DNA of 64,000 nt, taken from the NCBI RefSeq assembly GCF_001421015.2, contig NZ_CP013023.1, forward strand, positions 1,044,001 to 1,108,000, in the 5' to 3' direction. Position 1 is the first letter of the stretch. Each line of letters starts with the position of its first letter. Source of the DNA: Paenibacillus bovis. Lineage in GTDB: Bacteria > Bacillota > Bacilli > Paenibacillales > Paenibacillaceae. Both the position numbers and the translations under genes were made by a program. Below the pieces are notes generated by a model. The model saw only the letters and a program-made list of their open reading frames with translations, had not been told where the DNA came from and searched no databases. Of the stretch, positions 14,872 to 59,670 are shown piece after piece.

Positions 14872-14998
14872 CGCTGCAGAAAGGAATAAGGGCACGTCCT
14901 CCGGTTAAGCCTGGAGATTCTTGAATTGGATATTGGAAATGAGAATCTCCAGGCTTAAAAGTCGTCCTTTACCCTTATTTCCTTTCCTCCGCTCCGTA
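14872..14998 (-). repeat. Long hairpin element, copy A of a six-member family
   Basis: Read on the minus strand: flank GGAGCGGAGG, outer arm AAGGAAATAAGGG, core strand 1 AAAGGACGAC, inner arm TTAAGCCTGGAGATTC, a 20-nt loop, inner arm back, core strand 2 CCGGAGGACGTG, outer arm CCCTTATTCCTT, end CTGCAGCG. Both helices are nearly perfect; the two core strands form a fixed asymmetric internal loop. It lies in the 750-bp region between the GntR gene and the secreted-protein gene. No protein-coding frame is supported there. The stretch between copies A and F (about 14999-15221) is AT-rich without recognisable signals. Confidence 0.8.
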
Positions 14999-15221
14999 TC
15001 GCGGTGTGACTATGTTAAAACAAATAAAAAAATAATAACCAGCTGTCCATAAACAATAGCCAGTAACCAAAAACTAAAAAACAGCAGTTAATAACCCACA
15101 AACCACTGCCAAACTATAACCCGTCTCTTTACATCTTTCGTCTATAGCGTTGCTTCCCGCCCTCCCCTAACAAAAAGGAATTTAAATCTTTCATCTGGAA
15201 CGTGCGAATGGAGATCCTGGC

Positions 15222-15345
15222 ACGGAGCGGAGGGAATGGAATCCTTCTAAAGCCATCCTTTAAGAACGGATATCTACTGCTGAAAGCAGTTATTCCAGAT
15301 ATCCGTTCTTAACAGAGGGCGACAGAAGGATCCATTCCTGCAGCG
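15222..15345 (+). repeat. Long hairpin element, copy F (variant core)
   Basis: Same plan as copy A but diverged: flank GGAGCGGAGG, outer arm GGAATGGAATCCTTCT paired with AGAAGGATCCATTCC, core strand 1 AAAGCCATCCTTTAAG, inner arm AGAACGGATATCT, a 22-nt loop, inner arm AGATATCCGTTCT, core strand 2 AACAGAGGGCGACAG, end CTGCAGCG. The outer helix has a wholly different sequence yet remains paired. The remaining bases to the gene at 15504 are AT-rich and should hold its promoter. Confidence 0.7.
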
Positions 15346-15503
15346 TTGTAACTATTCTCCACTCCCACGCTTCCCGCTTCAAATTTAAATTCCTTTTTAT
15401 TTAATTTTTACATAAAAGAGGAATACGCTAGATAAAAACGAATTATGATAATTAAGAATCGATTGTCCCACCGTTTGACCATTTAGCCAGAGGAGGAACG
15501 TAT

Positions 15504-17099
15504 ATGCAAAAAGCAGTATCCCGAAGGATTCACCTGATTTTCCTTGCTATGATGCTGACAGCGGTATCCCTGTTTGGAGGTATGCCGGGTTCCAAAGCGG
15601 AAGCAGCAACTGCACTGACGGTTGCGCAGGCGATTCAGTCGCAGACCGCAGGCACGATTACGGTAACCGGAGTTGTGGTAGGACATGCGAGTGGTGCACA
15701 GACAGCTGATTTCAGCAGTCCATTTGCCAATGATTATAATCTGCTGCTGGCAGACAGCAAGGGCGAGACCAGCAACAGCAAGCTGTTGGACGTACAGATC
15801 CCGAGCAGCTTCCGCTCCCAGTTTGGACTGCAATCCAATCCGGGGCTGATTGGTCAGACGATTACGGTGACAGGTACCGCAGGTACATACAATAATTATC
15901 CGGGTGTAAAAAGCCCGACGGCGATGACAGTTGGCGGTACGACACCAACAGATCCGACTGATCCAACGAACCCAACAGATCCAACGCCAGGTACGCCGGG
16001 CACAGGAACCACACTGCCGGATGGCACAGGCAAAAAAGTTCTGTTCGACAATACGCATGGACAGACAGCCGGAGCAGCCGACTGGGTCATCAATGGCGGA
16101 TTCTCCGATTTTGCCAGTGGACTGCGAGCAGTCGGATTTACGGTAGAATCCCTGGAGCGTCCGATTCCTTATACGTTTGGCGAGCAGGCGATCACGTATG
16201 ACAAGCTCAAAAATTATGATGTATTTGTTCTTGCAGAGCCGAATGTTCCTTTCAAAGCGAGCGAACAGGCAGCGATGCTGCAATATGTCAAAGCAGGCGG
16301 CAGTATTTTCTTTATCGGTGATCACTACAATGCCGACCGCAACAAAAACCGCTGGGACGGTTCCGAAGCGATGAACGGCTATCGCCGCGGAGCGTACAGC
16401 AATCCGGCCAAAGGCATGAGTGCAGAAGAAGCCGCTTCCCCGGCAATGCAGGGTGTAAGCAGCTCCGACTGGCTGGGTACGAACTTTGGTATTCGTTTCC
16501 GCTACAATGCACTGGGTGATGTGAATGCTACCGATATCGTAGCTTCGAATCAATCTTTTGGTATTACGGCAGGAGTCAAATCGGTAGCGATGCATGCAGG
16601 TTCCACGCTGGCTATCCTTGACCCAAGCAAAGCCAAAGGTATCGTATATGTTCCATCCGGCGTCTCCAAATGGGGTAACGCAGTCGATCAGGGCGTATAC
16701 AATGGCGGCGGACGAAGTGAAGGTCCTTATGCTGCAATCTCCAAGCTGGGTGCCGGCAAAGCCGCCTTTATCGGGGACTCTTCTCCGGTTGAAGATGCAT
16801 CACCGAAATACCTGCGCGAAGAGACAGGCGCAGCCAAGAAAACCTATGATGGATTCAAAGAAGTAGACGATGCCACACTGCTCGTACAGACCGTGAGATG
16901 GCTCGCCAACAAAGAAAGCTACACCAGCTTCAGCGGAGTGAGCGGTCTGACACTGGACAGCCCGACACCACTGCTACCAATCGAGACCCCGGCTTCTTCC
17001 ACAGAGCCGCAGGCAGAACCATGGGCAGCTCCGCAAGCAGGCTACAAATGGTATGATCCAAAAACCTACAAAGCCGGTTCTTACGGTGCTGCTTCCTAA
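15504..17099 (+). CDS. Secreted protein: OB-fold (DUF6359-like) domain, Pro/Thr linker, GATase-like domain
   Basis: A 531-residue exported protein. The signal peptide is residues 1-34 (HLIFLAMMLTAVSLFGG, cleavage after KAEA). Residues 36-145 form a small beta domain resembling the DUF6359/YhcR OB folds (TVTGVVVGHASG, GQTITVTGTAGTY). A TDPT-repeat linker at about 150-172 leads to a 300-residue alpha/beta domain that starts KKVLFDNTHGQTAG and contains YDVFVLAEPN and GGSIFFIGDHYNADRN, like a class I amidotransferase/DUF4350 fold. A late GKAAFIGDSSPVEDAS strand and a C-terminal YKWYDPKTYKAG tail follow. The SD AGGAGG precedes the ATG. OB folds suggest nucleic-acid or sugar binding, but the function is unknown; the GATase-like call rests on the fold pattern only. 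Confidence 0.75.
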   Translation: MQKAVSRRIHLIFLAMMLTAVSLFGGMPGSKAEAATALTVAQAIQSQTAGTITVTGVVVGHASGAQTADFSSPFANDYNLLLADSKGETSNSKLLDVQIPSSFRSQFGLQSNPGLIGQTITVTGTAGTYNNYPGVKSPTAMTVGGTTPTDPTDPTNPTDPTPGTPGTGTTLPDGTGKKVLFDNTHGQTAGAADWVINGGFSDFASGLRAVGFTVESLERPIPYTFGEQAITYDKLKNYDVFVLAEPNVPFKASEQAAMLQYVKAGGSIFFIGDHYNADRNKNRWDGSEAMNGYRRGAYSNPAKGMSAEEAASPAMQGVSSSDWLGTNFGIRFRYNALGDVNATDIVASNQSFGITAGVKSVAMHAGSTLAILDPSKAKGIVYVPSGVSKWGNAVDQGVYNGGGRSEGPYAAISKLGAGKAAFIGDSSPVEDASPKYLREETGAAKKTYDGFKEVDDATLLVQTVRWLANKESYTSFSGVSGLTLDSPTPLLPIETPASSTEPQAEPWAAPQAGYKWYDPKTYKAGSYGAAS

Positions 17100-17220
17100 G
17101 CCAGATCGTCAAGCGGCACATACAGACAGCCTGGGATCATCCGGCAGCAAGTATATTGCTGCTGTGATTCCTCAGATATCGTATAGCTGTCGGCAGGCGT
17201 TTCCAAAAACCAACGCGTAT

Positions 17221-17271
17221 AACAAAACAGCCTCTTTCTCTGTAGATCTACAGGGAAAGAGGCTGTTTGTT
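17221..17271. terminator. Bidirectional terminator between convergent genes
   Basis: A near-perfect inverted repeat (AACAAAACAGCCTCTTTC with GAAAGAGGCTGTTTGTT, inner CTGTAGATCTACAG) separates the secreted-protein gene (+) from the DUF350 gene (-). The 17100-17220 stretch before it holds no gene. Confidence 0.85.
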
Positions 17272-17348
17272 ATGTGCCGATCTTATTCATTATTCGATGG
17301 ATATTGTGTTATGTCGCAGAATCTGATCTGCTGTCAGCATTGTTCCTT

Positions 17349-17756
17349 TTACATCAGAAATGTTCCGATCACAAAGGAGATACCGATGATCAGCGAGCGC
17401 AGCAGCTGGGCCATGGCCATATTGCCGTTTTTGATCTGTTCGCACACTTTGGTGCTGGGTGTGATCAAATCGAATATGATATACACCAGACATAGAATTA
17501 CGATACCGACAGCGGACCAGATAATAACGTCCAGCCAGTTGTTCGAGTTAATAGATACCAGTCCGACGATAATACAGAGACCGAGCAGTTTGCTGCCCAT
17601 GTACATTCCTGCAGCTTCATTGCCTTCGGCGATCTCCTTGTTATCGTTATAGCGGGTAATCAGACTGAATATATAATAGCCGACCAGCAGTGCGGCGAAT
17701 AGAATTAAGAGTCCAATCCCGACATGTAATAAATCTGTTCCAAAATGTCTCAACAT
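17349..17756 (-). CDS. DUF350 family inner-membrane protein (YjfL-like)
   Basis: A 135-residue membrane protein with four hydrophobic helices (about 12-35, 50-70, 75-97, 110-133) and the conserved NDNKEIAEGNEAAG loop between helices 1 and 2 that marks DUF350. AGGAGGGTTA precedes the ATG. It is the last gene of the minus-strand cluster with the ATP-grasp enzyme and the DUF1190-like lipoprotein, the same trio as E. coli yjfL-yjfM-yjfC. DUF350 proteins are thought to be small membrane partners in envelope or ion stress; the biochemical role is not established. A 225-bp gap separates it from the ATP-grasp gene, containing only a small GGATTGA/TCAATCC hairpin (17847-17866). Confidence 0.88.
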   Translation of the reverse strand: MLRHFGTDLLHVGIGLLILFAALLVGYYIFSLITRYNDNKEIAEGNEAAGMYMGSKLLGLCIIVGLVSINSNNWLDVIIWSAVGIVILCLVYIIFDLITPSTKVCEQIKNGNMAMAQLLRSLIIGISFVIGTFLM

Positions 17757-17981
17757 TAACCCTCCTGTAAATTAAAATGCTTGTATGCATCTCGTATAAT
17801 TGTGCAATTATCGGTAGTTCCATCTGTTCGATAAGGTTTGATACGTGGATTGATATTGGTCAATCCGTGGAATCCTACCGCTTTGCAAAAGTATGCTCTA
17901 TCCATAGGATCGCGCGGAACAGTCGGTGCTGCCACAGAACTCTGTGCTGATTTCTCCAGGCATAGATCTACAGACCGGATA

Positions 17982-19457
17982 TCAATCCTGTCTTTCAGTT
18001 GGAGTCACTGCGGCTGCACAGTAGCAGGCCAGATTGTCGGTCACTTTACCACCAATCCGTGGCAGCAGACCGGCAAAGGTACCACCGATCACAAAAGCTC
18101 CAGTCAGCAGATATCCTTCATATGTGCCGGTATCCGTCACCGCTCGGATCGGCTCCATCGGATGCAGCTGCTGATAGATTTTAGGCTGCTGCTCGTAATA
18201 GGCAGTAATCGCTTCTGCGGCCAGCCGCTCTTGATCAGCTGTATCCGGCTCGGTAGGATCAGCGTTCTCGGAATTCCAGGCTACAGCATGGCTGCCAAAG
18301 GGCGTGTTGGAAGCAGGCGGATCGCCCGAATCCTGCAGGCTGGGACGATTACTGTCTGCATCGTCTCTATGTATCGCCTGATCGTTTTTCTGCGGCGTGT
18401 GTGCTTGCCCAGCTTGTTCGATGAGCCGGGTACCCTGGCCTTCACGTCCAAAGTATCCTTTGGACACATAGGGAATATGATTTTGACGAAACGGCTCATC
18501 TGTAAAATAGGTCGGCAGCAAATACTGCTTGATCCAGCTGCATTCTTCGGCATTATACAGGGTGAAACCGGCATAATCCTGCATCTGGTCATTGCGCTCA
18601 TACAGCGACCATAATGTCGCCATAAAGCCTTTGCTCTGTGTAAGAATATGCTGCGCTGGATTGATCAGACCGAGTCTGCCTTCGGCAACGAGCTGCAGCA
18701 AATCTTCTCCCACCGCCCGGCCGGTTTCTTCTTCACGGTCTTCAACCAGATATTCAAGCGGATAGAGGCGGTACAGGATAGTGATCTGTTCTTCCTGATC
18801 ATATAATCCCTGCTCCGGTACGATCTTAAGCTGTTCCAGCGGTACATAGACAGCTTCGATTCCGGCGATCTGGCACTGTTCCAGCAGGTACATCGTATTC
18901 ATCCGGTCTTCCTCATGCCAGTCATAGCTGGTGAAATGAATCTTTGGACCGAGGCCATGCTCCGAATAATAGGAGAGTGCTTCCCGAAACATATGCTGAA
19001 TCCGGGTGTTCATCATGTCCGAAGCAGGCAGCAGTCCGGATACATGCCGAAGCAATTCCTTTTCGATAAAAGCGACCTCCGGCACACCACTCGGGGTATC
19101 GGTATTATTTTCTATACATTTTGGTTCGCCATCCGGGCTGATAATCCAGTCCAGTCGGGTCAGTCCATCCCACGGAATCGACTGCCGGGCTGTATGAGCC
19201 AGCAGTGGATGGATACCCAGCTGCTCGATCAGATATTCATCAGGCAGATACTCCTGAACAAAATGCAGCGTTTTGCGGTACAGATGATCGACCCGCTCCG
19301 AACCGAGCCGGAGCTGCTCATATTCATCGGCAGTATAGACAGTCATAGCCGGCAGGCAGTAGGGCTGTCCATACATCGTATGGTAAGGAATACGGCGGGC
19401 AATCTCGCCGGTAAACAGCTGTTCCCGGGATAACGGAATCGTGACAGTCCTACGCAT
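17982..19457 (-). CDS. Glutathionylspermidine-synthase-like ATP-grasp ligase (YjfC/YgiC-like)
   Basis: A 491-residue ATP-grasp protein of the GSP_synth family. Recognisable parts are RLDWIISPDGEPKCIENNTDTPSG (about 101-124), the substrate loop IHFTSYDWHEED, INPAQHILTQSKGFMATLW (ATP-grasp lysine region) and YVSKGYFGREGQGT. Paralogues in E. coli (YgiC, YjfC) lack the amidase half and do not make glutathionylspermidine; they are believed to ligate an amine or peptide to an unknown target. A hydrophilic stretch of roughly 60 residues (D, N, S, P rich, about 355-415) interrupts the domain just after GREGQGT and is probably a disordered insertion. The SD GGAGGATAAAGG overlaps the end of the upstream lipoprotein gene, indicating coupling. 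Confidence 0.87.
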   Translation of the reverse strand: MRRTVTIPLSREQLFTGEIARRIPYHTMYGQPYCLPAMTVYTADEYEQLRLGSERVDHLYRKTLHFVQEYLPDEYLIEQLGIHPLLAHTARQSIPWDGLTRLDWIISPDGEPKCIENNTDTPSGVPEVAFIEKELLRHVSGLLPASDMMNTRIQHMFREALSYYSEHGLGPKIHFTSYDWHEEDRMNTMYLLEQCQIAGIEAVYVPLEQLKIVPEQGLYDQEEQITILYRLYPLEYLVEDREEETGRAVGEDLLQLVAEGRLGLINPAQHILTQSKGFMATLWSLYERNDQMQDYAGFTLYNAEECSWIKQYLLPTYFTDEPFRQNHIPYVSKGYFGREGQGTRLIEQAGQAHTPQKNDQAIHRDDADSNRPSLQDSGDPPASNTPFGSHAVAWNSENADPTEPDTADQERLAAEAITAYYEQQPKIYQQLHPMEPIRAVTDTGTYEGYLLTGAFVIGGTFAGLLPRIGGKVTDNLACYCAAAVTPTERQD

Positions 19458-19462
19458 AGCCT

Positions 19463-19912
19463 TTATCCTCCAAAGAAAGAGCTGGACGATCCACTACTGC
19501 CAAAGCCGCTGTGCGATCCGGATGAGCTGCTTTTGTGGGAAGAGCTGTACCCGCCAAAAAAGTACGAACCGCCATGGCTGCCACTGCTATAGTCATCATC
19601 ACAATTATAAGGATTGCCATTCTGGTCATATTCGCAGTAATCATCATCGTCTCCGCAGCCGGTCAAGGCTACAGGTACGACCAGCATAAGAGAGAACGCC
19701 GCCATGCGTGCTTTGGAGCCGAGCGTTCGAGCCGGCTTGTCCGCAGACGCAGCATGCTGCTGAACAGCAGATGTTTCTGTTAAGGCACCGGTAATCTCAG
19801 GCAGCGATTCGGGCTTGCCGGTATGAGCGGCAGCAGCCGGTAATGGATAGATGGAACGTACAGATGGGTCAGACAGCAGTGTCTCGGGCTGGTTATGTAA
19901 ATCCTTTGTCAT
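19463..19912 (-). CDS. DUF1190-like membrane-anchored protein (YjfM/YgiB-like)
   Basis: A 149-residue protein. A 65-residue hydrophilic N-terminus is followed by a single hydrophobic segment ending in a lipobox-like ALTGC (about 72-85), then an acidic, cysteine-containing stretch (DDDDYCEYDQNGNPYNCDDD) and a C-terminus made almost wholly of Ser, Gly, His and Phe. The DUF1190 proteins YgiB and YjfM share the late hydrophobic segment, the acidic Cys region and a Ser/Gly/Phe-rich end. The start ATG overlaps the upstream stop (ATGA). Order and neighbours match yjfLMC. The assignment is by architecture and context because the sequence is low complexity. Confidence 0.75.
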   Translation of the reverse strand: MTKDLHNQPETLLSDPSVRSIYPLPAAAAHTGKPESLPEITGALTETSAVQQHAASADKPARTLGSKARMAAFSLMLVVPVALTGCGDDDDYCEYDQNGNPYNCDDDYSSGSHGGSYFFGGYSSSHKSSSSGSHSGFGSSGSSSSFFGG

Positions 19913-20394
19913 CCGTGTCTCACCTCACTCAGGAAAAACATGACTTTCTGACGATCTGCATCCAGTACGGTATAGAGCATATCGTAAGTGACTCCGTTCT
20001 CTACCCAGTAATGATCCAGCAGGCGGCGGGCAATATCCAGAGCAGCCATGGAATAATCATAGCCGCTGATCCGCTCAAAGCTGTCACCATTCCACACCCA
20101 GTATTCGGGCTGCAGGGAAGAGGGATAATCTTTTTGCCCGGTAATGGTACGGGCCAGACTTTTCTGATACGGATAAGGCAGTTCCTCTGCGAAAGGACGC
20201 GCATACACAATATGCTGCCCGGTGTTTTCGGATTCGTGGGATATATGTACCCAAATCCGGTGATTCAGTTTGATAGCGTCTACAAGCTTGTGCACAAAAA
20301 GCTCATCCGAATGCATGGACGGATATTCATGAATCCGACCCAATTCGCGCTGTTTGTCCTCTGACCATTCTATGTAGCGTAGAGGATAATGCAT
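19909..20394 (-). CDS. Uncharacterised protein, first gene of the yjfLMC-like operon
   Basis: A 161-residue soluble protein, rich in aromatic residues and charged, with no signal peptide or membrane helix. The N-terminus HYPLRYIEWSEDKQRE and the central PEYWVWNGDSFERISGYDYSM do not match a family I can name. In E. coli the corresponding upstream genes are yjfI, yjfJ (PspA-like) and yjfK (DUF2491). A DUF2491-like role is possible from position, but I cannot support it from motifs. The ATG at 20394 was chosen because AAAGGGAGTGAACATC lies directly before it; a longer in-frame start lacks an SD. Its stop overlaps the lipoprotein start. Confidence 0.7.
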   Translation of the reverse strand: MHYPLRYIEWSEDKQRELGRIHEYPSMHSDELFVHKLVDAIKLNHRIWVHISHESENTGQHIVYARPFAEELPYPYQKSLARTITGQKDYPSSLQPEYWVWNGDSFERISGYDYSMAALDIARRLLDHYWVENGVTYDMLYTVLDADRQKVMFFLSEVRHG

Positions 20395-20733
20395 GATGTT
20401 CACTCCCTTTTGAATCTTTCGTTTCAAGTACATCCATGTTTACGCATCCTGGCATAAAAAGATGCACAATTTCCATTTTCCGATAAAAAGCCCTATTTGC
20501 AAACAGGAAATTTTAACCAGAAAAAATCCGGATAAGGTGCAAGCAGACATGGGTAGCAAAGAGTACACTTGGACTACGCTGACTAATGTTTATCACCACC
20601 ACGCCAGAGTTGCAGTCTGCACTACTATCCGCTGTATAATGAACGCAGCAACGTTTCTGGCATGAACTGCGAATCAGTCATGCTTTCCTTGGATGAACGT
20701 CTGTCTCTTGTGAATAACAGGGAGGGATGGCAG
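20395..20733. other. Divergent promoter region, no gene
   Basis: This 339-bp region separates the yjfLMC-like operon from the glycosyltransferase gene. Short open frames exist on the plus strand but none has a ribosome-binding site. No riboswitch or strong palindrome was recognised. Confidence 0.6.
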
Positions 20734-23126: not shown

Positions 23127-23213
23127 TATAATAGTAATCGACAACATAGTAATAATAATGGTACGAGTAAAAGTAAAAATATCAAGATAACACCAATAGT
23201 CACTGTAACCCCG

Positions 23214-23332
23214 GAACGGCGGAGAGGAAATAAGGGCAAAGGACGACATTGGAGTGCGGGAATCTACATTCTCTCCTACTCGGTAGATTCCTGCGCTCCA
23301 CCGGAGGACGTGCCCTTATTCCTCTCCAGAGT
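23214..23332 (+). repeat. Long hairpin element, copy B
   Basis: Flank GGCGGAG, outer arm GGAAATAAGGGC paired with GCCCTTATTCC, core strand 1 AAAGGACGAC (23238-23247), inner arm TGGAGTGCGGGAATCTAC paired with GTAGATTCCTGCGCTCCA, a 15-nt loop, core strand 2 CCGGAGGACGTG (23301-23312). It lies between convergent genes, before the shared terminator at 23385. The rest of the 23127-23494 gap holds no gene. Confidence 0.82.
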
Positions 23333-23384
23333 GGATAACCTAGCCCCTTTTTCATACATTAGCTCCCCAAATCCCATACCAATA

Positions 23385-23450
23385 TGTAAATAAAAAGGCT
23401 GATGATATACACGGTGTTTGGGTGCATATCATCAGCCTTTTTCTATTTAC
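23385..23450. terminator. Bidirectional terminator between the acetyltransferase and tdk
   Basis: A long stem (AAAAAGGCTGATGATAT with ATATCATCAGCCTTTTT, extended by GTAAATA/TATTTAC) has A-rich and T-rich flanks, suiting both strands. Confidence 0.9.
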
Positions 23451-25221: not shown

Positions 25222-25293
25222 GGATGAAGCAACAACATCCATTTAGGATGAAGCAACAACATCCATTTAGGATGAAGCAACAACATCCATTTA
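25222..25293 (+). repeat. Three exact 24-bp tandem repeats between csoR and copZ
   Basis: Three head-to-tail copies (starting 25222, 25246, 25270) of a unit beginning GGATGAAGCAACAACATCC, plus a partial fourth. Each unit contains GGATG and CATCC, so each could form a small hairpin. The array begins 3 bp after the csoR stop. The rest of the spacer to copZ is unremarkable. Confidence 0.95.
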
Positions 25294-25377
25294 GGATACT
25301 AATGCTCCGTCCATTTGGCTGAGGAACTACTATCTATTCAGAATCAAGCACCAATACACATTTGAGGAGGAATACAC

Positions 25378-40987: not shown

Positions 40988-41024
40988 ATAGGTGCATATC
41001 GTATGAGGACACATACAATGCTTG

Positions 41025-41118
41025 ATTCGCTTCCTACGCTGGCATTATCCAGATCAGGTATAAGGGTCTGTATTGATCGAATACACTCTCAGCCGGCTAG
41101 CCCAGCTCCCCCAGATCG
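41025..41118 (-). ncRNA. TPP riboswitch (THI element)
   Basis: On the minus strand the conserved THI-box parts occur in order: GGGGGAGC, GGCTGAGAGTG, ACCCTT, ACCTGATCTGGATAATGCCA, GCGTAGGAAG. They match the pyrimidine-sensing (CTGAGA) and pyrophosphate-sensing (CCTGATCTGGATAAT) helices. A terminator follows at 40961, so ligand binding should stop transcription of thiY, DUF77, thiX, thiZ and tatD. Confidence 0.97.
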
Positions 41119-41337
41119 TATGCGCTTTTTCTAGGTGTAATTATAGACGAGAGCCTGCCTGCTGTCCAGCAAGTGAGGCATCCGGGGAACGATAGGATAA
41201 GCGGTGAAGGTTCAGCTTGCTGCTGACCGGGTAAGTATCCATACAGGCACTCAAAGTTAAGTACTATCTAAAATTCAGCGCCTTGTTATCAGGGTGTATT
41301 GAATAATCCAAGTCCATATCGCGGAAGGAGCTTGATC

Positions 41338-46400: not shown

Positions 46401-46472
46401 TTCTGTTCATCGAATAATAATCGGATGCATGTACTGCATTAAATCCTATAACATCACGACTCTCCAAGCACG

Positions 46473-46593: not shown

Positions 46594-46614
46594 ATAGCCG
46601 CTTATCCGTCTAAC

Positions 46615-47769
46615 TCAAGCTTTCAGGCTTTTGAATTTCTCGTAAGCAGCCATAATTTTGTTATAGTCTTCGCTATCCTTGGCAAAGCCAGTTACATCAC
46701 TCACTACAGGACCCACGCCTTCTGCCTGGATACGTGCCTGCAGTTCGGCAGACTGTGGATCGTTATTGTTGTCGTACAGGAAAGCGGCGGCTGCACCCTG
46801 CAGCAGGTGATCACGACCCAATCCCAGCTCCGCCGCCATATTGGCAGGACCGATCAGACGATCAGCCGGACCCAGCTTGCGCAGTGGCTCACGGCCGACA
46901 CGGATGACTTCATCACGGATATATGGGTTTTTGAAACGAGTCTCGATTTTATCGATGTATTTCGCATGCTCGGCAGCATCGAATTCGTATTTTTTCACCA
47001 GGGCTGCGCCGCTTTCTTCCATGGCCGGACGGGCAATGGAGCGTACGGATTCATCCTGGATACTCTGGTCGATCGTCTCGATTCCTTTCAGGAAACCCAG
47101 GTAGGCAGTGATCGCATGACCGGTATTCAGCGTGAACAGCTTGCGTTGTACATAAGCGACCAGATTGTCGGTCAGCTTCATGCCGTCGATCTCCGGAGTG
47201 CCGCCTTTGAGCTTCGGCTCTTCCACGATCCATTCGTGGAACGCTTCTACGCCCACATCCAGCAGATTCTCACCCTGGAAAGGAGGCACGATACGGTCTA
47301 CGGAACAGTTGGCAAATCCTACATGTTCACGTGCATAGGCTTTGCCTTCTTCGGACAGATGACTCTCCACCTGCTCCTGCAGATGGCTGGTCGCGCCTAC
47401 CATGTTCTCACAGGCGATCACATTCAGCGGACCTGCACCGGCAGCACGGCGAGCTTCAATGCCCTGTGCAATGGTAGGAGCGATGAATTTGAGCACATTC
47501 GGGCCGACAGCCGTTGTGATGATCTCGGCACTGGCGATCTCGTCAATGATTTCCGGGCCATTGGACATGCAGCCGGAGACATTGGTAATCGTCTCTACGC
47601 TTTTTTCCAGATCGAGGATATGGATTTGGTAGCTCTTTTTCTCGTTGAGTTCCTGGATCATCTGTTCGTTTACATCTGCGAATACAACGTGGTAACCAGC
47701 ATTGGCCAGCAATGCTCCGATAAATCCGCGACCGATATTACCTGCACCAAACTGAATAGCTTTTTTCAT
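46615..47769 (-). CDS. mtlD: Mannitol-1-phosphate 5-dehydrogenase
   Basis: A 384-residue enzyme oxidising mannitol-1-phosphate to fructose-6-phosphate with NAD. The Rossmann start AIQFGAGNIGRGFIG (residues 4-18), the NCSVDRIVPPF motif, and the polyol-dehydrogenase segment KLFTLNTGHAITAYLGFL with catalytic Lys/Asn/His are all visible; length matches E. coli MtlD. ATG 47769 follows ACGGAGGTGCAAG. It is the last gene of the mtlR-mtlA-mtlD group, 205 bp behind mtlA with a strong hairpin in between. Confidence 0.96.
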   Translation of the reverse strand: MKKAIQFGAGNIGRGFIGALLANAGYHVVFADVNEQMIQELNEKKSYQIHILDLEKSVETITNVSGCMSNGPEIIDEIASAEIITTAVGPNVLKFIAPTIAQGIEARRAAGAGPLNVIACENMVGATSHLQEQVESHLSEEGKAYAREHVGFANCSVDRIVPPFQGENLLDVGVEAFHEWIVEEPKLKGGTPEIDGMKLTDNLVAYVQRKLFTLNTGHAITAYLGFLKGIETIDQSIQDESVRSIARPAMEESGAALVKKYEFDAAEHAKYIDKIETRFKNPYIRDEVIRVGREPLRKLGPADRLIGPANMAAELGLGRDHLLQGAAAAFLYDNNNDPQSAELQARIQAEGVGPVVSDVTGFAKDSEDYNKIMAAYEKFKSLKA

Positions 47770-52596: not shown

Positions 52597-53265
52597 GTGA
52601 ACAAAAATCAGATACATAATCAGCAGCGAGTTTTGTTTCAGGGGGATTCGATTACGGATGGTAATCGTGGACGTGACGCCGATCCCAATCATATTATGGG
52701 CCATGGTTATGCATTCTGGATTGCGGCTGAATTGGGACATGCGATGGCACCAACCCAGCCGGAATTCCTGAATCGGGGGATCAGCGGTAATCGTATTACC
52801 GATCTGCAGGCTCGCTGGAACGAAGATACCCTCCAGCTGCAGCCGGATATCATCAGTATCCTGATTGGTGTTAATGATATCCTGATGTCGATAATGAAGC
52901 CGGGAGGCTTCGATAAAATAGCGTATGAAAACGTCTATCGTCATCTATTGCAGCATACGCAGTCAGAGCTGCCGGAAGTTCAATGGATACTATGCGAGCC
53001 GTTCATTTTGCGAGGCGGACATACCGATGCAGATTGGGGCGGCTGGCAAGCGGCGGCAGCAGACTGCGCGGCAGTGGTACGGAGACTGGCAAAGGAATTC
53101 AATGCCGTCTTCGTCCCGTTGCAGGATGTTTTTGACGATGCCTGTGCAGTAGCGCCTGCTTCGTACTGGATATGGGATGGTATCCATCCAACAACTGCCG
53201 GTCACGGGCTGCTGGCGAAGCGATGGCTGGAGGTCGTCCAGAACAGTCCGGCTCGAATTGGCTAA
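52597..53265 (+). CDS. SGNH/GDSL family hydrolase
   Basis: A 222-residue cytoplasmic esterase/lipase-like protein. Block I FQGDSITDG has the nucleophile Ser18, block II has the oxyanion Gly in NRGISGN, block III is GVND, and block V is DGIHPTTAGH with catalytic Asp and His. There is no signal peptide. Relatives include acylhydrolases and carbohydrate acetylesterases; the HPTTAGHGLLA end is typical of intracellular acetyl-xylooligosaccharide-type esterases of Firmicutes, but the substrate is not proven. It stands alone. Confidence 0.9.
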   Translation: MNKNQIHNQQRVLFQGDSITDGNRGRDADPNHIMGHGYAFWIAAELGHAMAPTQPEFLNRGISGNRITDLQARWNEDTLQLQPDIISILIGVNDILMSIMKPGGFDKIAYENVYRHLLQHTQSELPEVQWILCEPFILRGGHTDADWGGWQAAAADCAAVVRRLAKEFNAVFVPLQDVFDDACAVAPASYWIWDGIHPTTAGHGLLAKRWLEVVQNSPARIG

Positions 53266-53356
53266 AAGAAACTGCAATTTGCTTGCAAAGAACAACCTCC
53301 GTGGGCGTAATCATCTGCTGTATGGTTAGCCGGAATATTGATTTCACACAAAATGC

Positions 53357-53392
53357 CTTGCTGTCAGTCCTGGACAACGGACTGGCGGCAAG
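53357..53392. terminator. Weak hairpin between convergent genes
   Basis: CTTGCTGTCAGTCC pairs with GGACTGGCGGCAAG with one small mismatch bubble, followed by ACATTTTATT. The rest of the 53266-53554 region shows nothing. Confidence 0.5.
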
Positions 53393-53554
53393 ACATTTTA
53401 TTAAGGCTTTTATTTTATGTTTTTTTACTTTATATAGAAGCAAAAGATTGTGGAGAAGGAAAATAACAAGCACTTTTCAGGAACGATGAGCAGGAACAGG
53501 TATAGCTATCACCGTTCCAGACAGAACGGCAGGATATTGCGTCGTTTCAGGCCG

Positions 53555-54496
53555 TTACAGCGGTTTTCTGGAATCGAATTCCACGGTTACTTCATGCTCC
53601 GGTTCCTCGCCGGCATACCATGGGTTCAGGTGGACGAGAACTTCGGTGACTTGTGTATCCGCAGTCATGATATTTTTCTTCATGACTCGTGAGATATCAT
53701 GTCCCTGCTGGATCGTTAGTGTCGCGTCTACGCCGATTCGCACATCGACTACAATATATTGACCATGCTCACGGGCACGGATACGGTCGATTCGTTTGAC
53801 TTCCGGCATATTTTTGAGCACAGCAGCATAGGCTTCGATCTTCTCGGGATGAACCGCTTTCTCCATCAGGATATCGATAGAGTCGCGTCCGGTCTCATAA
53901 GCCAGTTTGAGAATCAGCAGGGCGACGATCATACCGGCGAGCGGATCACCATACGAGAGCAACGACCAGCCGTACGCTTCACCAATCAGACCCAGACCGA
54001 TACCGGCACAGGCAGCTGCCGAGGCATATACGTCTGCCAGATGATCCTGTGCTGTCGCGATTAGGCCTTTGCTGTTGGTCTCGCGTCCGATCCGCATCGT
54101 GTATACATACAGTACCAATTTCCAGACCAGAGAAATAAATGCGGCGATCAGCGCAATAATATGCGGCTGTGAAGGTGGCTCGAACAGCAGCATAAACGAA
54201 TGATAACCGATGTATAACGCCGCAATCAGCAGGATACCGGCTACTACGCTGGCTCCGACGACCTCGGCTTTGCCGTGACCATACGGATGGTCTTCATCGG
54301 GCGGCATGGACGAGATGCGCATGGAGCCGAGCGCTGTCGCCGAAGCGATCACATCGCCTGCATTATGAATACCGTCCGCAATCAATACCTGACTGTTGAA
54401 CAGTACACCGACGATCAGCTTGAGCAGGGTCAGGATAATATTACTGACCAGACTGGCCCAGGCTGCAAGCATGGATGAATTAAGAGTTCTACTCAT
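53555..54496 (-). CDS. Cation diffusion facilitator (CDF) metal transporter
   Basis: A 313-residue antiporter with six transmembrane helices and a cytoplasmic ferredoxin-like C-terminal domain (about 215-305). Site A residues are in LIADGIHNAGDV (helix 2) and QDHLADVYAS (helix 5), a D-x3-N/H-x3-D arrangement seen in MamB/Fe-Mn-type members rather than pure zinc CDFs (H-x3-D). The DEDHPYGHGKAEVVG loop is typical. ATG 54496 follows GGAGGCCATAGTA. No metal-responsive regulator is adjacent. Mn, Fe or Zn export is possible. Confidence 0.9.
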   Translation of the reverse strand: MSRTLNSSMLAAWASLVSNIILTLLKLIVGVLFNSQVLIADGIHNAGDVIASATALGSMRISSMPPDEDHPYGHGKAEVVGASVVAGILLIAALYIGYHSFMLLFEPPSQPHIIALIAAFISLVWKLVLYVYTMRIGRETNSKGLIATAQDHLADVYASAAACAGIGLGLIGEAYGWSLLSYGDPLAGMIVALLILKLAYETGRDSIDILMEKAVHPEKIEAYAAVLKNMPEVKRIDRIRAREHGQYIVVDVRIGVDATLTIQQGHDISRVMKKNIMTADTQVTEVLVHLNPWYAGEEPEHEVTVEFDSRKPL

Positions 54497-54760
54497 TACT
54501 ATGGCCTCCTGCAATCTATATCATGCCAGAATAATATCGGCATATCAGCATAGGGATAACATAACAAGCTTGTTTATTATGTAAACGAAATGATTCAACT
54601 GTAATCGGCAGCATTCCTGCCTATCAATCCCTGCCATTCAGCAGAATGAGACACAGCAGTGAACGTCCCCAACAACATGGGGAGAAATGGCACGAAGTAT
54701 TAATATAGCACAAATCCACCGTTTAACCAAGAGAATTAACCGGGCGAATGTACACAGGAA

Positions 54761-54792
54761 AAGCGCCTCGTCTGCGGACAGAAGAGGCGCTT
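54761..54792 (-). terminator. Terminator after the GH13 gene
   Basis: AAGCGCCTC and GAGGCGCTT form a 9-bp stem; on the minus strand four T follow. The remaining 54497-54875 sequence carries no gene. Confidence 0.7.
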
Positions 54793-54875
54793 GCTGACAG
54801 GATACGCAGTCGTCTAGTTGATAGACAAATGGATGATCTGTCAGTGTGTATAGGTTACTCATGGCAGTAGATTAC

Positions 54876-56645
54876 TCAGCCGGTTTGCTGTGGCTTTTTG
54901 TCCTTGTCCAGACAGCGCAGCACCTGGTATCCATAGGCAGGAAGCTGGTATTTCAGAATACCGCCTTCCAGCTCCACTTCGCGATTTTCCAGCACATCTT
55001 CCCAGTGTGTTCCTTTGATATCAATCTCAATATCGATTGGTTCACTGGAGCTGTTGAGCGCAATAATGAATTTCTCCTGCTCATCAAATCGTTCGTAGAC
55101 CAGCTCGTTGCTGCCCTTGCGGGAATGCAGGAAACGGAATGTACCCTGACGGAGCGCCGGATACTGCTTGCGCATAGCGATGATCTGCTGGTAGTAGGCG
55201 AACAGCTCGCGATCCTGTTCTTCTTTTTCCCAGACCATGCAGCGGCGGCAATCCGGATCGCCTTCGCCTTCCATTCCGATCTCGTCTCCATAATAGATAC
55301 AAGGGGCCCCGGTAAAGGTCATCTGGAACAGCGCGGCCAGCTTGAGACGGTTTTTGTCACCGCCTGCGACAGTCAGTGCGCGCGGCGTATCATGGCTGTC
55401 GATCAGGTTAAAGGCTACTTCCGCCACCTGACGCGGATAGCGGGACATCTGGTTGCCGATCGCATGGGAGAACGTCTGCGCATCGGTTACATCTTTAATG
55501 AAGAAATCGGTCACGGCATTTTTGAAAGGATAGTTCATCACCGAGTCGAATTGGTCGCCCTGCAGCCATGGAATCGATTCGTGCCAGATCTCGCCGAGGA
55601 TATAAATATCCGGATTGATATTTTTCAGGGTCAGGCGGAATTCACGCCAGAACTGGTGATCCACCTCGTCCGCTACATCCAGACGCCAGCCGTCGATACC
55701 GTATTCTTCCGCCCAATAACGGGCTACGCCGAGCAGGTATTCTTTAACTTCCGGATTCTCGGTATTCAGCTTGGGCATCAGCGGCTCAAAGTCAAACGTA
55801 TCGTACGTTGGAATTCCGTCTTCGACTGCCAGCGGGAATTTGCGTACATGGAACCAGTCTTTGTACTTGGAATTTTCGCCTTTTTCCTGTACATCGACGA
55901 AGGGAGCAAACGTTTTGCCGGAATGGTTGAATACCGCATCGAACATCACGCGGATGCCTTTGCTGTGGCAGGTGTTGACGAGCTTTTTGAGCGTTTCTTC
56001 GTCGCCAAAGCTCGGGTCGATCTTCATATAATCTTCGGTATCGTATTTATGGTTGGTGGTCGCTTTGAAAATAGGGCACAGATAGATCGCGTTCACGCCC
56101 AGCTCGGTCAGATGGTCCAGATGATCGATAATGCCCTGCAGATCACCGCCAAAGAAATTGTTCCACTCCGGCTTGCCGCCCCATGGCAGCGTGCCTTCCG
56201 GATCGTTGGACGTATCGCCATTGGCAAAGCGCTCCGGGAAAATCTGATAAAACACAGCGTCTTTTACCCATTCCGGCGTAGTGAATACATCGACCGGATT
56301 GATGAAAGGAATATCAAACAGACGATCCATCTGCGGTTCTTCCGCGCCAAATTTGTCTTCATCCATCCAGATTTCTTCCTGGTCATCCGCCAACTTGAAA
56401 CCATACTTGAGACGACGGTATGGCGGCTTAACGGCACATTCCCAGTAATCGAACAGATCATCGGTAGCGAAAATACTCATCGGTACCAATTCTTTGGATT
56501 TTTCCCACATGTACTTGTCACCGGCGATTGCCCAGGCCTGCTTGACGTCCTGCTTTTTCGTGCGCAGACGCAGATGGATCGTCTCGCGGTCGTACGGATA
56601 ACCCCAGTTCAATTTTGGACGGTGATAGACGGCTTCGATCAGCAT
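54876..56645 (-). CDS. GH13 alpha-glucanase: neopullulanase / cyclomaltodextrinase type
   Basis: A 589-residue intracellular enzyme. An N-terminal CBM34-like beta domain (about 1-125) is followed by the catalytic barrel. The four GH13 regions are DAVFNH, GWRLDVADE (nucleophile Asp), GEIWHE (acid Glu) and LIDSHD. The FYQIFPERFANGD start is typical of GH13_20 neopullulanases, which cleave cyclodextrins, pullulan or maltooligosaccharides imported into the cell. There is no signal peptide. AGGAGG precedes the ATG. It is not linked here to a maltose transporter. Confidence 0.94.
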   Translation of the reverse strand: MLIEAVYHRPKLNWGYPYDRETIHLRLRTKKQDVKQAWAIAGDKYMWEKSKELVPMSIFATDDLFDYWECAVKPPYRRLKYGFKLADDQEEIWMDEDKFGAEEPQMDRLFDIPFINPVDVFTTPEWVKDAVFYQIFPERFANGDTSNDPEGTLPWGGKPEWNNFFGGDLQGIIDHLDHLTELGVNAIYLCPIFKATTNHKYDTEDYMKIDPSFGDEETLKKLVNTCHSKGIRVMFDAVFNHSGKTFAPFVDVQEKGENSKYKDWFHVRKFPLAVEDGIPTYDTFDFEPLMPKLNTENPEVKEYLLGVARYWAEEYGIDGWRLDVADEVDHQFWREFRLTLKNINPDIYILGEIWHESIPWLQGDQFDSVMNYPFKNAVTDFFIKDVTDAQTFSHAIGNQMSRYPRQVAEVAFNLIDSHDTPRALTVAGGDKNRLKLAALFQMTFTGAPCIYYGDEIGMEGEGDPDCRRCMVWEKEEQDRELFAYYQQIIAMRKQYPALRQGTFRFLHSRKGSNELVYERFDEQEKFIIALNSSSEPIDIEIDIKGTHWEDVLENREVELEGGILKYQLPAYGYQVLRCLDKDKKPQQTG

Positions 56646-56913
56646 GTATGTTCCTCCTGTAATTGTTATGTAAAGGCTAACGATTTTTACCCCGAAAGGT
56701 TAGAGTGGAACCATAATCTGGTATCTCTTTTGAGCAGGGTTATCCAAATCTTAAAAATGTGGAAAGGATGGTTCTTTTATTGCGGCTTTCTGCTTGATAG
56801 TTGCTGTTTGCCTGTCTATAAATGGAGTGTATATCTTTATGGCTTTGTTCAATCGTTCTATTTACAATATAGGTAGCTGTTTGTATCAAGATTATTATAC
56901 ATATATGGTATGA

Positions 56914-57126
56914 TCAAATGAAAAAGAAGTTTCTTATAACAAGGATATACTTGCCGAGTTGAAATATATTATCTATAAATATCCTGAAATAATATTGATC
57001 TATACTCCAGATCTGCTGGCATCCGGTACCTACAGTATTACCGTATCTTCCGGTTCTGCTGCAATGAAAGGCCAATTGAAAGTTCATATTGATACAGATA
57101 TAAAGAAACTGCAAGCAGCCAGTTGA
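56914..57126 (+). pseudogene. Possible gene remnant without a start codon
   Basis: A 70-codon frame starts directly after an in-frame TGA and has no ATG, GTG or SD near its start. The encoded KYPEIILIYTPDLLASG and TYSITVSSGSAAMKGQLKVH read like a natural beta-rich protein end. It may be the tail of a decayed gene. The rest of the 56646-57216 gap has only the terminator at 57155. Confidence 0.3.
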
Positions 57127-57154
57127 AATCCAATCCAATGCCTGAATAAAACAC

Positions 57155-57197
57155 AAAAAAGGAGAATTGATCCGGCTCCAAGCCAGATCGATTCTCC
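57155..57197 (-). terminator. Terminator after the CoA-transferase gene
   Basis: On the minus strand GGAGAATCGATC pairs with GATCAATTCTCC (one mismatch), followed by six T. Confidence 0.88.
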
Positions 57198-57216
57198 TTT
57201 ACTTATTCCATACTAT

Positions 57217-58731
57217 TTATTCCAGCCATTCCGGAGGACATGATCCTCTGGGTACCAGCACGGTCCGGTACTCGCCCGGTGTCTCGGACATATGCACCTG
57301 ATCCGTCACGCCCTGATAATGTCCGCATACCGTATCTGCGGTAAACAACTCCGGATCAAGATAAAGATGCTCTTCGGATGATCCCGCCGTCCGGTGAGCG
57401 AACTCTTTATCAAACAATCCCATCGACATCAGCCATAGCGATACCCGGCTCAGGGAAATATGCACCCGGTAGCTGCTGCCTTCCTCGGCGCGGCGTGCCA
57501 GTGCAGCCATTGCTCCGGCAGCAGCCAGCCATGAGATGATGTAGTCATTCACGACCAGAATCGCAGGCAGCTGCGGCTTGTCCGGCGTTCCTTCCAGACA
57601 CATTACGCCGGTCAGTGTACCGGCTGTCTGGTCGAATCCGATCCGGTCTGCCCATGGGCCTTCATTGCCACCGAGCGATACCGAGACATGAATAATACCC
57701 GGACGTACAGCAGCCGCTTGTTCGGGACTCAGACCAAAGCGCTCCAGATACGTAGGGCGACGATTGGCAAAGAAAATATCCGCGTCGCGCAGCAGCTCCT
57801 GCATTTTGGCCTGGCCCTGTTCATCTGCCACCTCCAGCGTCGAAGAGCGCATGCCCACATTGGCAGTGTAATAGGTCGTATCTACTTCCCAATCACCCGG
57901 ACGCCAAATATTCAGTACATCCGCTCCATGCAGTGCGAGTGCACGTCCGACTCCTGAACCTGCGATGACATGACCCATACCGAGCGCACGTATGCCTTCA
58001 AGAGGAGAAGAGGCGCCGGTAGACAACGGTTCGGGATCACTCTCGCCAATCTTCTCAATCTCGATCAGCGGCTGGGCGGCGATCACATCGGATACCGGAT
58101 CGCTCAGGAACTCTTCGACTGTGCGTGCGACAGGCATGACGATCCCGGCGCGACGTCCGGCTTCCTCCAGTTCGGCAGAATCCCACTGGGCAATGGCTGC
58201 AGCTACCGCTTCCGGCGTGTCCGGGCAATTCAGCAGTTTGAGTGTATTGATTTTCAGCTTTGGATACGGCTCCAGCGGCATTACCCATTTGCCATCCTTT
58301 GTCTGGTAAAAGTCGAATTTCAGTGCCTGACTTGGATCGGAAGGACTGGCTGGCGAATAGCCGTTCAACTTTTCCCATTTCCGATCATAAAAAGGAGAAA
58401 GACGATGCAGAATCTGGCGCAGATCGAGCGAAATATCCTGCCCTTTGCCACCGCGCATTCGCCATAGCTTGGCAGCAGCAACCGATTTGGCGACCATGCC
58501 GATACCTGCCGAACTGGCCAGGCGCAGTACGCTCGGTACAATAGGATCTTTGCCGGTAAAAGTAATCTGGCCGCCGCTGTCGGCTGCGGATAATCCCATA
58601 CTGTTCAGCAGCTGTTCCAGTTCATGATGAATATCAAACTCTGTATGATCCGCGCGATTCTGTTCGGCCTGACGGATTTTTTCTTTTAACTGAGCTGCCG
58701 TTTCGGTGTTATTCGTATGTTGGGATATCAT
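57217..58731 (-). CDS. CaiB/BaiF family (type III) CoA-transferase
   Basis: A 504-residue protein. The C-terminal half (about 250-500) is a full CaiB-like domain beginning GIRALGMGHVIAGSGVGRALALHGADVLNIWRPG, with ADIFFANRRPTYLERFGLS, GIIHVSVS and VVNDYIISWLAAAGAMAALARR. The N-terminal half (about 55-235) looks like a second, partial CaiB lobe (GKGQDISLDLRQ, LKINTLKLLNC). Fused double-lobe versions are known in this family. These enzymes move CoA between carboxylic acids; the acceptor is unknown. ATG 58731 follows ACGGAGTGAACCCT. It stands alone with no catabolic neighbour. Confidence 0.87.
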   Translation of the reverse strand: MISQHTNNTETAAQLKEKIRQAEQNRADHTEFDIHHELEQLLNSMGLSAADSGGQITFTGKDPIVPSVLRLASSAGIGMVAKSVAAAKLWRMRGGKGQDISLDLRQILHRLSPFYDRKWEKLNGYSPASPSDPSQALKFDFYQTKDGKWVMPLEPYPKLKINTLKLLNCPDTPEAVAAAIAQWDSAELEEAGRRAGIVMPVARTVEEFLSDPVSDVIAAQPLIEIEKIGESDPEPLSTGASSPLEGIRALGMGHVIAGSGVGRALALHGADVLNIWRPGDWEVDTTYYTANVGMRSSTLEVADEQGQAKMQELLRDADIFFANRRPTYLERFGLSPEQAAAVRPGIIHVSVSLGGNEGPWADRIGFDQTAGTLTGVMCLEGTPDKPQLPAILVVNDYIISWLAAAGAMAALARRAEEGSSYRVHISLSRVSLWLMSMGLFDKEFAHRTAGSSEEHLYLDPELFTADTVCGHYQGVTDQVHMSETPGEYRTVLVPRGSCPPEWLE

Positions 58732-58864
58732 AGGGTTCACTCCGTTTCCAAGATAGTGTAAAAGTATGACACGGTGGAATGGCATACGTAGCAGGATTCA
58801 TCGTAATCGTATGAACTCATTGTAGGCTCTAAGATTAGTAGCGTCGGGCTTAGTAGCATTCACT

Positions 58865-58985
58865 CCAGAAAGGAATAAGAGCACGTCCTCCGATTAAGCC
58901 TGGAGATCCTTTAATGGTGGGAAGGAATGAGGATCTCCAGGCTTAAAGGTCGTCCTTTGCTCTTATTTCCTTTCCTGCGTTTCGT
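58865..58985 (-). repeat. Long hairpin element, copy C
   Basis: Minus strand: outer arm GGAAATAAGAGC paired with GCTCTTATTCC, core strand 1 AAAGGACGAC, inner arm TTTAAGCCTGGAGATCC paired with GGATCTCCAGGCTTAA, a 21-nt loop, core strand 2 TCGGAGGACGTG. Compared with copy B the outer helix changes GGGC/GCCC to GAGC/GCTC, a compensated change. It lies 134 bp upstream of the CoA-transferase start. Confidence 0.85.
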
Positions 58986-59371
58986 CTAAGGATATCTTTG
59001 TTAATTATCTACATCATTCCAATAGAAACTAACAATTAAATAATGAAGGAATTAAGAATTGAGAAGTACAGTGATATAGAAATTTCAATAGCACGATGAT
59101 TGAAAATAGAAAGGAATGATATATTTAGGAACTTAAAGTGCTTAGAAAATCACAAATCTTCGATAAGTAAATTTATACATATTATTATATAACCAATATT
59201 AGCCAAGCTCAATAAACAAGAGGTTCCCAAATGTGGCATATGCCTCAATTCAATAGAAAGTGTCTATAAAATCAAGTAAATAATCCAATAAAAAATAATC
59301 CAATAAAGGAAGCGTTTGAACTAACGATCAGTCCTAGAAATAAAGCCGTGTTGCGAAATAAAATACTATGC
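58986..59371. other. AT-rich gene-free stretch
   Basis: About 390 bp of strongly AT-rich sequence with no supported frame. It has a repeated short AATAATCCAATAAA pattern near 59279-59308, and otherwise I see nothing in it. Confidence 0.5.
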
Positions 59372-59405
59372 AAAAAAACAGGCCAGAGCATGACATGCCC
59401 CGGCC
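59372..59405 (-). terminator. Orphan terminator on the minus strand
   Basis: GGCCGGGGCAT pairs with ATGCTCTGGCC (two G-T pairs) around a 3-nt loop, then TG and seven T. No intact gene lies upstream of it on this strand; only the hexanucleotide array does, suggesting a lost gene. Confidence 0.75.
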
Positions 59406-59424
59406 CGTCTATTACACTTATTTT

Positions 59425-59490
59425 GCAGTTGCAGTTGCAGTTGCAGTTGCAGTTGCAGTTGCAGTTGCAGTTGCAGTTGCAGTTGCAGTT
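59425..59490. repeat. Hexanucleotide array (GCAGTT) x 11
   Basis: Eleven exact tandem copies of GCAGTT. On the minus strand one frame would read repeated Thr-Ala, then Lys and a stop 16 bp before the terminator at 59372, but a TAA directly precedes the array in that frame. It may be an expanded tail of a decayed gene. Confidence 0.97.
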
Positions 59491-59549
59491 TAGTCTTACT
59501 TCTATATCATATTACGCAATATGCAAATGCCATCAAAGATGCCTCAGCA

Positions 59550-59670
59550 CTTAGCGGAGAGAAGGAAATAGGGGCAAAGGACGACCTTGGAGCCTGGAAA
59601 TCAACCTTTTCCTACTTCCATAATTTCCAGGCTCCACTGGAGGACGTGCCCCTATTCCTTGTCGGAGCGA
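59550..59670 (+). repeat. Long hairpin element, copy D
   Basis: Flank TTAGCGGAGAG, outer arm GGAAATAGGGGC paired with GCCCCTATTCC, core strand 1 AAAGGACGAC, inner arm TTGGAGCCTGGAAAT paired with ATTTCCAGGCTCCA, a 21-nt loop, core strand 2 TGGAGGACGTG, end TCGGAGCG. The outer helix differs from copies B and C by compensated pairs. Confidence 0.85.

Follow-up and report, generated by a model that had tools for sequence, protein, structure and literature searches.

A family of long intergenic hairpins in Paenibacillus bovis: support for selected structure and a possible role as RNA insulators

The stretch of Paenibacillus bovis DNA analyzed here (the window, 64 kb in full; hairpin coordinates are positions within it) contains six copies of a long intergenic hairpin, four of them in two back-to-back pairs and two standing alone. 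An initial annotation had placed six copies in the window, and all were found at the same positions and on the same strands. Each is predicted to fold as a single long hairpin, with energies between −47 and −67 kcal/mol and z scores from −4.3 to −9.4, and none of 200 shuffles folded as stably. The copies and the elements attached to them, with cmsearch scores and Pfam-assigned neighbors, are as follows.

14867..15002 (−), hairpin with core GGACGAC/GGAGGAC, left partner of the first back-to-back pair; 145.3 bits, fold z −7.0
15003..15216, spacer, 214 bp between the hairpins of the first pair, hypervariable among relatives
15172..15191 (+), 5′ arm of an extra outer stem of the copy at 15217, from a complementary-arm search
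15217..15350 (+), hairpin of a variant subtype, right partner of the first pair; 117.6 bits, fold z −9.4
15381..15398 (+), 3′ arm of the same extra outer stem, from the same search
23206..23338 (+), lone hairpin with core GGACGAC/GGAGGAC, neighboring genes GNAT-domain (+) and thymidine kinase (−); 130.9 bits
46465..46598 (+), lone hairpin with core CGACCGAC/GGAGGGAG, neighboring genes EAL-domain (+) and mannitol dehydrogenase (−); 122.1 bits
58856..58990 (−), hairpin with core GGACGAC/GGAGGAC, left partner of the second pair, before a CoA-transferase III gene (−); 136.2 bits
58991..59543, spacer, 553 bp between the hairpins of the second pair, 33% GC
59544..59674 (+), hairpin with core GGACGAC/GGAGGAC, right partner of the second pair, next gene an aldehyde dehydrogenase (−); 138.3 bits

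The statement that no transposase lies near holds for the eight genes flanking the copies, which are the genes that were checked: none of the eight carries a transposase domain.

On the strand identified below as the selected one, the elements follow in the order of a GC step at the ends (AGCG...AGCG or AACG...AGTG), a mismatch step, an outer helix, a bulged A, a further helix and the core internal loop; beyond this loop come a helix resembling TTTAAG/CTTAA, an inner helix that varies and the apical loop. The GCGGAG and GGAGCG ends described initially as flank are present, but belong to the structure itself, where they make up a paired step, GC/GC or AC/GT, with a mismatched step after it. RNAalifold on the six copies gave 38 pairs, with a double change in 23. 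Read antiparallel by hand, the cores GGACGAC/GGAGGAC and CGACCGAC/GGAGGGAG would give stretches of tandem G·A mismatches bounded by closing C-G pairs, a reading that applies to the common core types; by strict patterns, 25 of the 89 distinct copies in the genome (see below) have a GGACGAC-type and 11 a RACCGAC-type core, and 40 are unassigned. The copies at 15222 and 46473, at first regarded as divergent variants, are in fact subtypes with further members in the genome. A common subtype has an additional, GCGAAGCGTTCGC-like side hairpin where the core lies (A4 and A6 rows, genomes G008 and G009, and other genera) and is possibly an older form of the element.

In 14 of the 89 copies the hairpin is enclosed by further complementary arms, scoring at a level that 1% of mismatched flanks attain. 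Those of the copy at 15217 are conserved in two relatives, Paenibacillus dauci (G003) and Paenibacillus wulumuqiensis (G015), with the 15172..15191 arm unchanged in both, although the DNA separating it from the hairpin differs. Outer stems outside the main hairpin, for example GGTCCTATTC/GAATAGGACC, are also seen at the relatives' loci L228, L232, L226, L279 and L347, and because of these the full element may be about 200 nt long.

A covariance model built from the six window copies (R1), as had been suggested with the initial annotation, matched at least 125 sites in the genome (150 of 453 candidates scored). A search of 62 sources at E up to 1e-9 gave 93 rows (alignment A2), from which four antisense rows were removed, and the family thus proved far larger than six, with 89 distinct copies; at least two weaker R1 sites (2919549 and 4788700) lie outside this set. 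R1 found matches in 15 of 16 genomes of the genus, in some by one to five weak matches, and a second model (R2) in at least 64 of 118 Paenibacillaceae genomes and at least 12 of 19 genera, where the counts are lower bounds because 29 candidates per genome were scored under stricter filters. In Saccharibacillus sacchari (G011), approximately seven identical 124-bp units, each containing a single hairpin, lie head to tail at L225:7299-8153; an additional copy at 4899-5008 hints at a larger duplication.

A scan requiring the terminal motif also returned hairpins from more distant bacteria, for which sharing of the motif alone does not show common origin. Long hairpins in Oceanobacillus, Gracilibacillus, Rossellomorea and Alkalihalobacillus have the same terminal motif and a different core (GACTCCT...GGAAAGCG in most); these Bacillaceae loci are L281, L285, L287, L297, L299, L302, L308, L315, L317, L324, L342 and L351. 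Hairpins at the Pseudomonas loci L275, L277 and L289 have the terminal motif AGCGGAGGGA...TCCCGCAGCG and several inner stems; a search of the Pseudomonas hairpin against plasmids gave no match.

The A2 alignment, which was used for covariation and for the G-U and A-C counts, was fitted to the model and hence leans to it; 95.5% of its cells pair, compared with 74.3% when shuffled and 34.6–53.3% when slid, and it contains 723 double-change cells against 203 in controls. Because the shuffled and slid controls ignore relatedness, a tree-aware test was added, in which columns were simulated along a FastTree tree with the number of changes per column kept (60 simulations). Fourteen of 9,045 column pairs covary at E 0.05, and all 14 are among the 38 proposed pairs; none of the other 9,007 was significant, and 24 of the 38 fell below significance. 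The covariation called for in the initial annotation is therefore significant beyond phylogeny. G-U is found in 69 cells and A-C in 22, counts in which the cells are not independent; by this excess of G-U over A-C in the alignment, the strand carrying the G·A core is the selected strand.

At orthologous sites, 75 alignments were made with P. dauci, P. wulumuqiensis and G006, of which 44 from P. dauci and 21 from P. wulumuqiensis entered the rate table; nine diverged or lost hairpins (three and six, respectively) and the single G006 row were left out. Stem positions differ at 3.7% (P. dauci) and 4.8% (P. wulumuqiensis), compared with 12.4 and 16.0% in the flanks, where the rates come from the 71 of 130 flanks with 10 gaps or fewer, so the flanks look more conserved than they are. 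Both partners of a pair have changed in 15 and 16 cases, against 2.2 and 1.8 expected, and 10 and 13 of these go from one Watson-Crick pair to another. Unpaired positions of the hairpin differ at 8.4 and 11.5% overall, a figure composed of unlike parts: the core loops change as slowly as the helices (2.6 and 4.9% in P. dauci, 5.4 and 5.6% in P. wulumuqiensis) and the bulged A is altered in 0 of 44 and 2 of 21 orthologs, whereas the apical loop changes at about the flank rate (12.8 and 16.7%), and the terminal mismatch step at 8.7 and 19.0%. Among the 74 rows from both species, 57 hairpins are free of gaps, compared with 20 and 18 of the two flanks, and within 120 nt of the hairpin identity drops to 0.53–0.79 with many gaps on both sides, so that the hairpin stands as a conserved island. 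Because helices and core change slowly relative to apical loops and flanks at orthologous sites, these comparisons support selection on the helices and unpaired core as structure, rather than repeat decay. The initial argument, that constant unpaired sequence between compensated helices points to selected structure, agrees with both the covariation and the orthologous conservation.

The six window copies illustrate the range. The copy at 14867 is identical to its orthologs at 115 of 120 positions in P. dauci and 119 of 120 in P. wulumuqiensis, and its partner at 15217 at 116 and 117 of 118, respectively, in a region (14800-15500) that is longer by 166 bp in P. dauci and by 105 bp in P. wulumuqiensis. 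The copy at 59544 matches its P. dauci ortholog at 109 of 115 positions; its partner at 58856 matches at 85 of 119 with 21 gaps, and gave no alignment in P. wulumuqiensis. Of the lone copies, that at 23206 has a counterpart in P. wulumuqiensis and none was found in P. dauci, and at the site of that at 46465 a 3′ stub is left in P. wulumuqiensis and the last few bases in P. dauci.

All 20 close pairs in the P. bovis genome are back to back, with the minus-strand copy on the left and the plus-strand copy on the right, and are separated by spacers of 82–553 bp. No homology was found among the 20 spacers, and an element that spans the spacer was rejected on this ground; CAGTTG hexamers occur in tandem at 59423-59490, within the spacer of the second window pair. 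Close neighbors in other genomes, after deduplication, are arranged −+ in 18 cases (one of which depends on a weak match almost 1 kb away), ++ in three (two of them from the S. sacchari tandem array), −− in one and +− in none. With genes called by our own codon score and one of the 89 copies (L030) omitted from gene-context counts, none of 88 copies overlaps a called gene by more than 40 nt. Sixteen of the pairs lie between tandem genes, three between divergent and one between convergent genes.

Lone copies are mostly sense to the preceding gene, in 40 of 48 cases in P. bovis and 35 of 47 in other genomes. The strands of the upstream and downstream genes relative to the lone copy are ++ 25, +− 15, −+ 4 and −− 4 in P. 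bovis and ++ 25, +− 10, −+ 3 and −− 9 elsewhere. A riboswitch or leader of the 5′ untranslated region (UTR) was rejected because gene orientation varies and convergent genes enclose some of the copies. Replication direction fits the strand bias less well than transcription does: where the two are discordant, 7–10 copies follow the sense of the gene and 1–2 follow replication, depending on the terminus assumed. The G-U excess and this sense bias to transcription favor an RNA over a double-stranded palindromic DNA element; single-stranded DNA is compatible with both observations.

Terminators were predicted by a rule of our own and promoters with weights of our own. At the 16 paired copies in ++ context, a sense terminator precedes the hairpin in 12 and follows it in two, and an antisense terminator precedes it in none. 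No promoter-like sense signal was detected upstream of the hairpins, where the positive control was detected, and promoters belonging to the hairpins themselves were rejected on this ground.

The DNA 3′ of the hairpin, on the selected strand, is rich in C and poor in G. In P. bovis the C/G ratio is 2.6–3.1 over the first 40 nt and ∼1.4–1.7 by 100–140 nt, compared with 0.65–1.7 over bins on the 5′ side and 0.91 in the tandem intergenic background. An excess of C over G of at least six in 50 nt is found 3′ of 76% of the 89 copies, 5′ of 27% and in 13% of background windows. The corresponding 50-nt stretches in the window are as follows.

14817..14866 (−), 3′ side of the copy at 14867, C 19 and G 6
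15351..15400 (+), 3′ side of the copy at 15217, C 17 and G 2
23339..23388 (+), 3′ side of the copy at 23206, C 18 and G 3
46599..46648 (+), 3′ side of the copy at 46465, C 13 and G 8; weaker and mostly inside the next gene
58806..58855 (−), 3′ side of the copy at 58856, C 13 and G 8; weaker
59675..59724 (+), 3′ side of the copy at 59544, C 18 and G 4

The first 20 nt on the 3′ side have a C/G ratio of 1.9–4.8 in Saccharibacillus endophyticus (G005), G008, G009, S. sacchari and Saccharibacillus sp. JS10 (G013), and across 27 rows, in which one sequence is present twice, taken from five named Paenibacillus contigs and from eight additional genera, the ratio is 3.05, then 1.99. Bases inserted in orthologs have C/G ratios of 1.45 and 1.68 on the 3′ side and 1.05 and 1.28 on the 5′ side. 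In being C-rich and G-poor the stretch resembles Rho-dependent terminators and rut sites (PMC10319736, PMC7815308), and the anatomy is compatible with trimming of the RNA back to a hairpin. It differs from them in the long, conserved hairpin with a specific core ahead of the C-rich stretch, and in that its dependence on Rho is putative. A rho gene is encoded in the genome (665 bits).

A structure selected on one strand, lying mostly sense to the gene before it, lacking its own promoter and trailed by sequence rich in C and poor in G suggests an element that acts on RNA leaving a gene. Our preferred, still tentative, reading is that the hairpins may be cis-acting RNA insulators, which would provide a strand-specific stop for read-through and antisense transcription together with Rho, by way of the 3′ tail. 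In such a scheme the hairpin would be carried in read-through RNA, its G·A-rich core would be bound by a protein or RNase or would block 3′ exonucleases, and the C-rich tail would load Rho; a back-to-back pair would shut the intergenic region to transcription from both directions. A broader form of the proposal is rather unlikely to hold in full: that a whole bacterial family uses genome-wide sets of dedicated RNA insulators built from a rod-like stacked G·A hairpin and a Rho landing tail, one-way when alone and two-way when paired, with a core-reading protein that has co-evolved with each lineage's sequence type. Intergenic stem-loop repeats are known in many bacteria without an agreed function, and here selection on helices and core, a selected strand, a fixed arrangement and a C-rich 3′ side make a concrete function testable. 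If the insulator proposal is true, each genome would carry some ninety modular RNA boundaries suited to transplantation and assay, and the factor recognizing stacked G·A pairs would await discovery.

Several observations weigh against the insulator proposal. As neither flank of the hairpin is constrained in its evolution, the tail is known only as a composition; four of the six window copies have a strong tail. It spans ∼140 nt in P. bovis and 40–60 nt in other genomes, and is lacking from the similar-ended hairpins of Bacillaceae (C/G 1.38, 13 copies) and Pseudomonas (0.96, three copies). In G008 and G009, C-richness is also seen in some bins on the 5′ side, with C/G reaching 3.0 (10 copies) and 3.6 (seven copies), respectively. 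Rho is noted to be dispensable in B. subtilis (PMC10319736). The sense bias is weaker in the other genomes, with 25 against nine copies between tandem genes. At the 25 lone ++ copies a sense terminator precedes the hairpin in eight and follows it in two, but antisense terminators lie on the 5′ side in nine, so that the excess at lone copies is not strand-specific, and at pairs the region before the hairpin is the longer one. The promoter signal between the hairpin and the downstream gene is weak and not significant. Finally, the hairpin is diverged or lost in nine of 74 ortholog rows, and the ortholog loci were mostly fetched through model matches, which favors intact copies.

Among other explanations, a Rho-free element of the 3′ UTR that stabilizes or processes the upstream mRNA, either as a block to 3′ exonucleases or through an RNase III-type cut, would account for the sense orientation of the 40 lone copies, for the high stability of the hairpins and for an unpaired core kept as if bound. 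It is nevertheless unlikely: predicted terminators separate gene from hairpin at eight of the 25 lone ++ copies and at 12 of the 16 paired ones, a pair between tandem genes (16 cases) always has one hairpin antisense to both, and the C-rich 3′ side is left unexplained.

We also consider improbable a non-autonomous mobile element of single-stranded DNA, comparable with repetitive extragenic palindromes (REP) and their mosaic elements (BIME), in which case a transposase would act at the hairpin, and mobility would be what maintains the structure. Many copies per genome, lineage-specific sequences on a common architecture, BIME-like inverted pairs and the tandem array of S. sacchari all speak for such an element. 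The resemblance to REP/BIME with their RAYT transposases (PMC2817692) extends to high copy number, extragenic location, palindromic structure, alternating orientation and lineage specificity; the inverted pairs are a further likeness. The hairpin is, however, ∼125 nt long, the paired spacers are unrelated, and the pairs in P. bovis have one mutual orientation. A Y1 transposase (PF01797), the transposase family that was searched, occurs in one of the 16 genomes of the genus and not in P. bovis, and identity with REP/RAYT was rejected on this count. No target-site duplication, which the initial annotation would have counted against a functional RNA, was seen, and a miniature inverted-repeat transposable element (MITE) of a DDE transposon was likewise rejected, as direct repeats flanking the 89 copies are not clearly more frequent than in mismatched flanks. 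Two sites viewed closely in relatives offered no clean empty site, one being partly deleted in two relatives and the other absent within diverged flanks. Moreover, compensatory changes occur at fixed orthologous sites.

That the hairpins are multicopy trans-acting small RNAs, like tsr24 of Staphylococcus aureus (RF02577), is more doubtful still. A conserved structured RNA with a constant core would fit, and the Oceanobacillus (Bacillaceae) hairpin with the same terminal motif aligns end to end with tsr24, at 29.9 bits and thus below the gathering threshold of 50; no match to tsr24 is listed, however, for the window (at gathering level) or for the genus loci (E up to 5). Upstream promoter-like signals are absent, no conserved promoter- or terminator-like sequence lies beside the hairpin, and the apical loop is not conserved. 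Least probable is the absence of any function: palindromes can be corrected in one event, by template switching within the palindrome, which keeps the arms complementary and could yield double changes without selection, but the core mismatches persist and change as slowly as the helices, with the bulged A almost invariant (0 of 44 and 2 of 21), G-U exceeds A-C on one strand, and insertions and deletions are few (57 of 74 ortholog hairpins gap-free, against 20 and 18 of the flanks).

The initial annotation did not recognize the family, and comparison with Rfam agrees: no family reached its gathering threshold on the hairpins in the window. On 11 loci from eight genomes of the genus, with E up to 5, the hairpin matches were microRNA models far below threshold, and on eight further named loci none reached threshold on the hairpins, an FMN riboswitch being found elsewhere on them. 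With 89 copies, a common predicted hairpin and no gene overlap beyond 40 nt, the hairpins belong, on their sequence features, with the kind listed as intergenic stem-loop repeat families by Cozzuto et al. 2008 (PMC2267715), whose families include ERIC, Efa-1, Bhal-1, Sta-1 and Bcr1 and whose function was left open. The available text of that survey has no Paenibacillus or Saccharibacillus entry and mentions neither selection on orthologous copies nor a conserved mismatch core, a back-to-back arrangement or a C-rich 3′ side. The R0, R2 and R178 repeats of P. fluorescens (PMC2718517) are similar in being intergenic and stem-loop-forming, with a tail-repeat-tail location bias discussed as terminator-like; they differ in being inverted repeats around a variable core, and were interpreted there as possibly MITE-like or as placed where least harmful. 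Searches of a library of non-subscription papers found no account of this hairpin family, which may be described elsewhere. Those on RAYT in Firmicutes and on tsr24 found nothing, and that on the Bacillaceae core sequence found unrelated papers only; the main text of RepRanger, as far as available, does not mention Paenibacillus (PMC12306157).

Two further features of the window lie apart from the hairpins. Three identical tandem units with a 24-bp period occupy 25222-25297, and a thiamine pyrophosphate (TPP) riboswitch, the only Rfam family found in the window, lies at 41013-41122 on the minus strand (66.5 bits).

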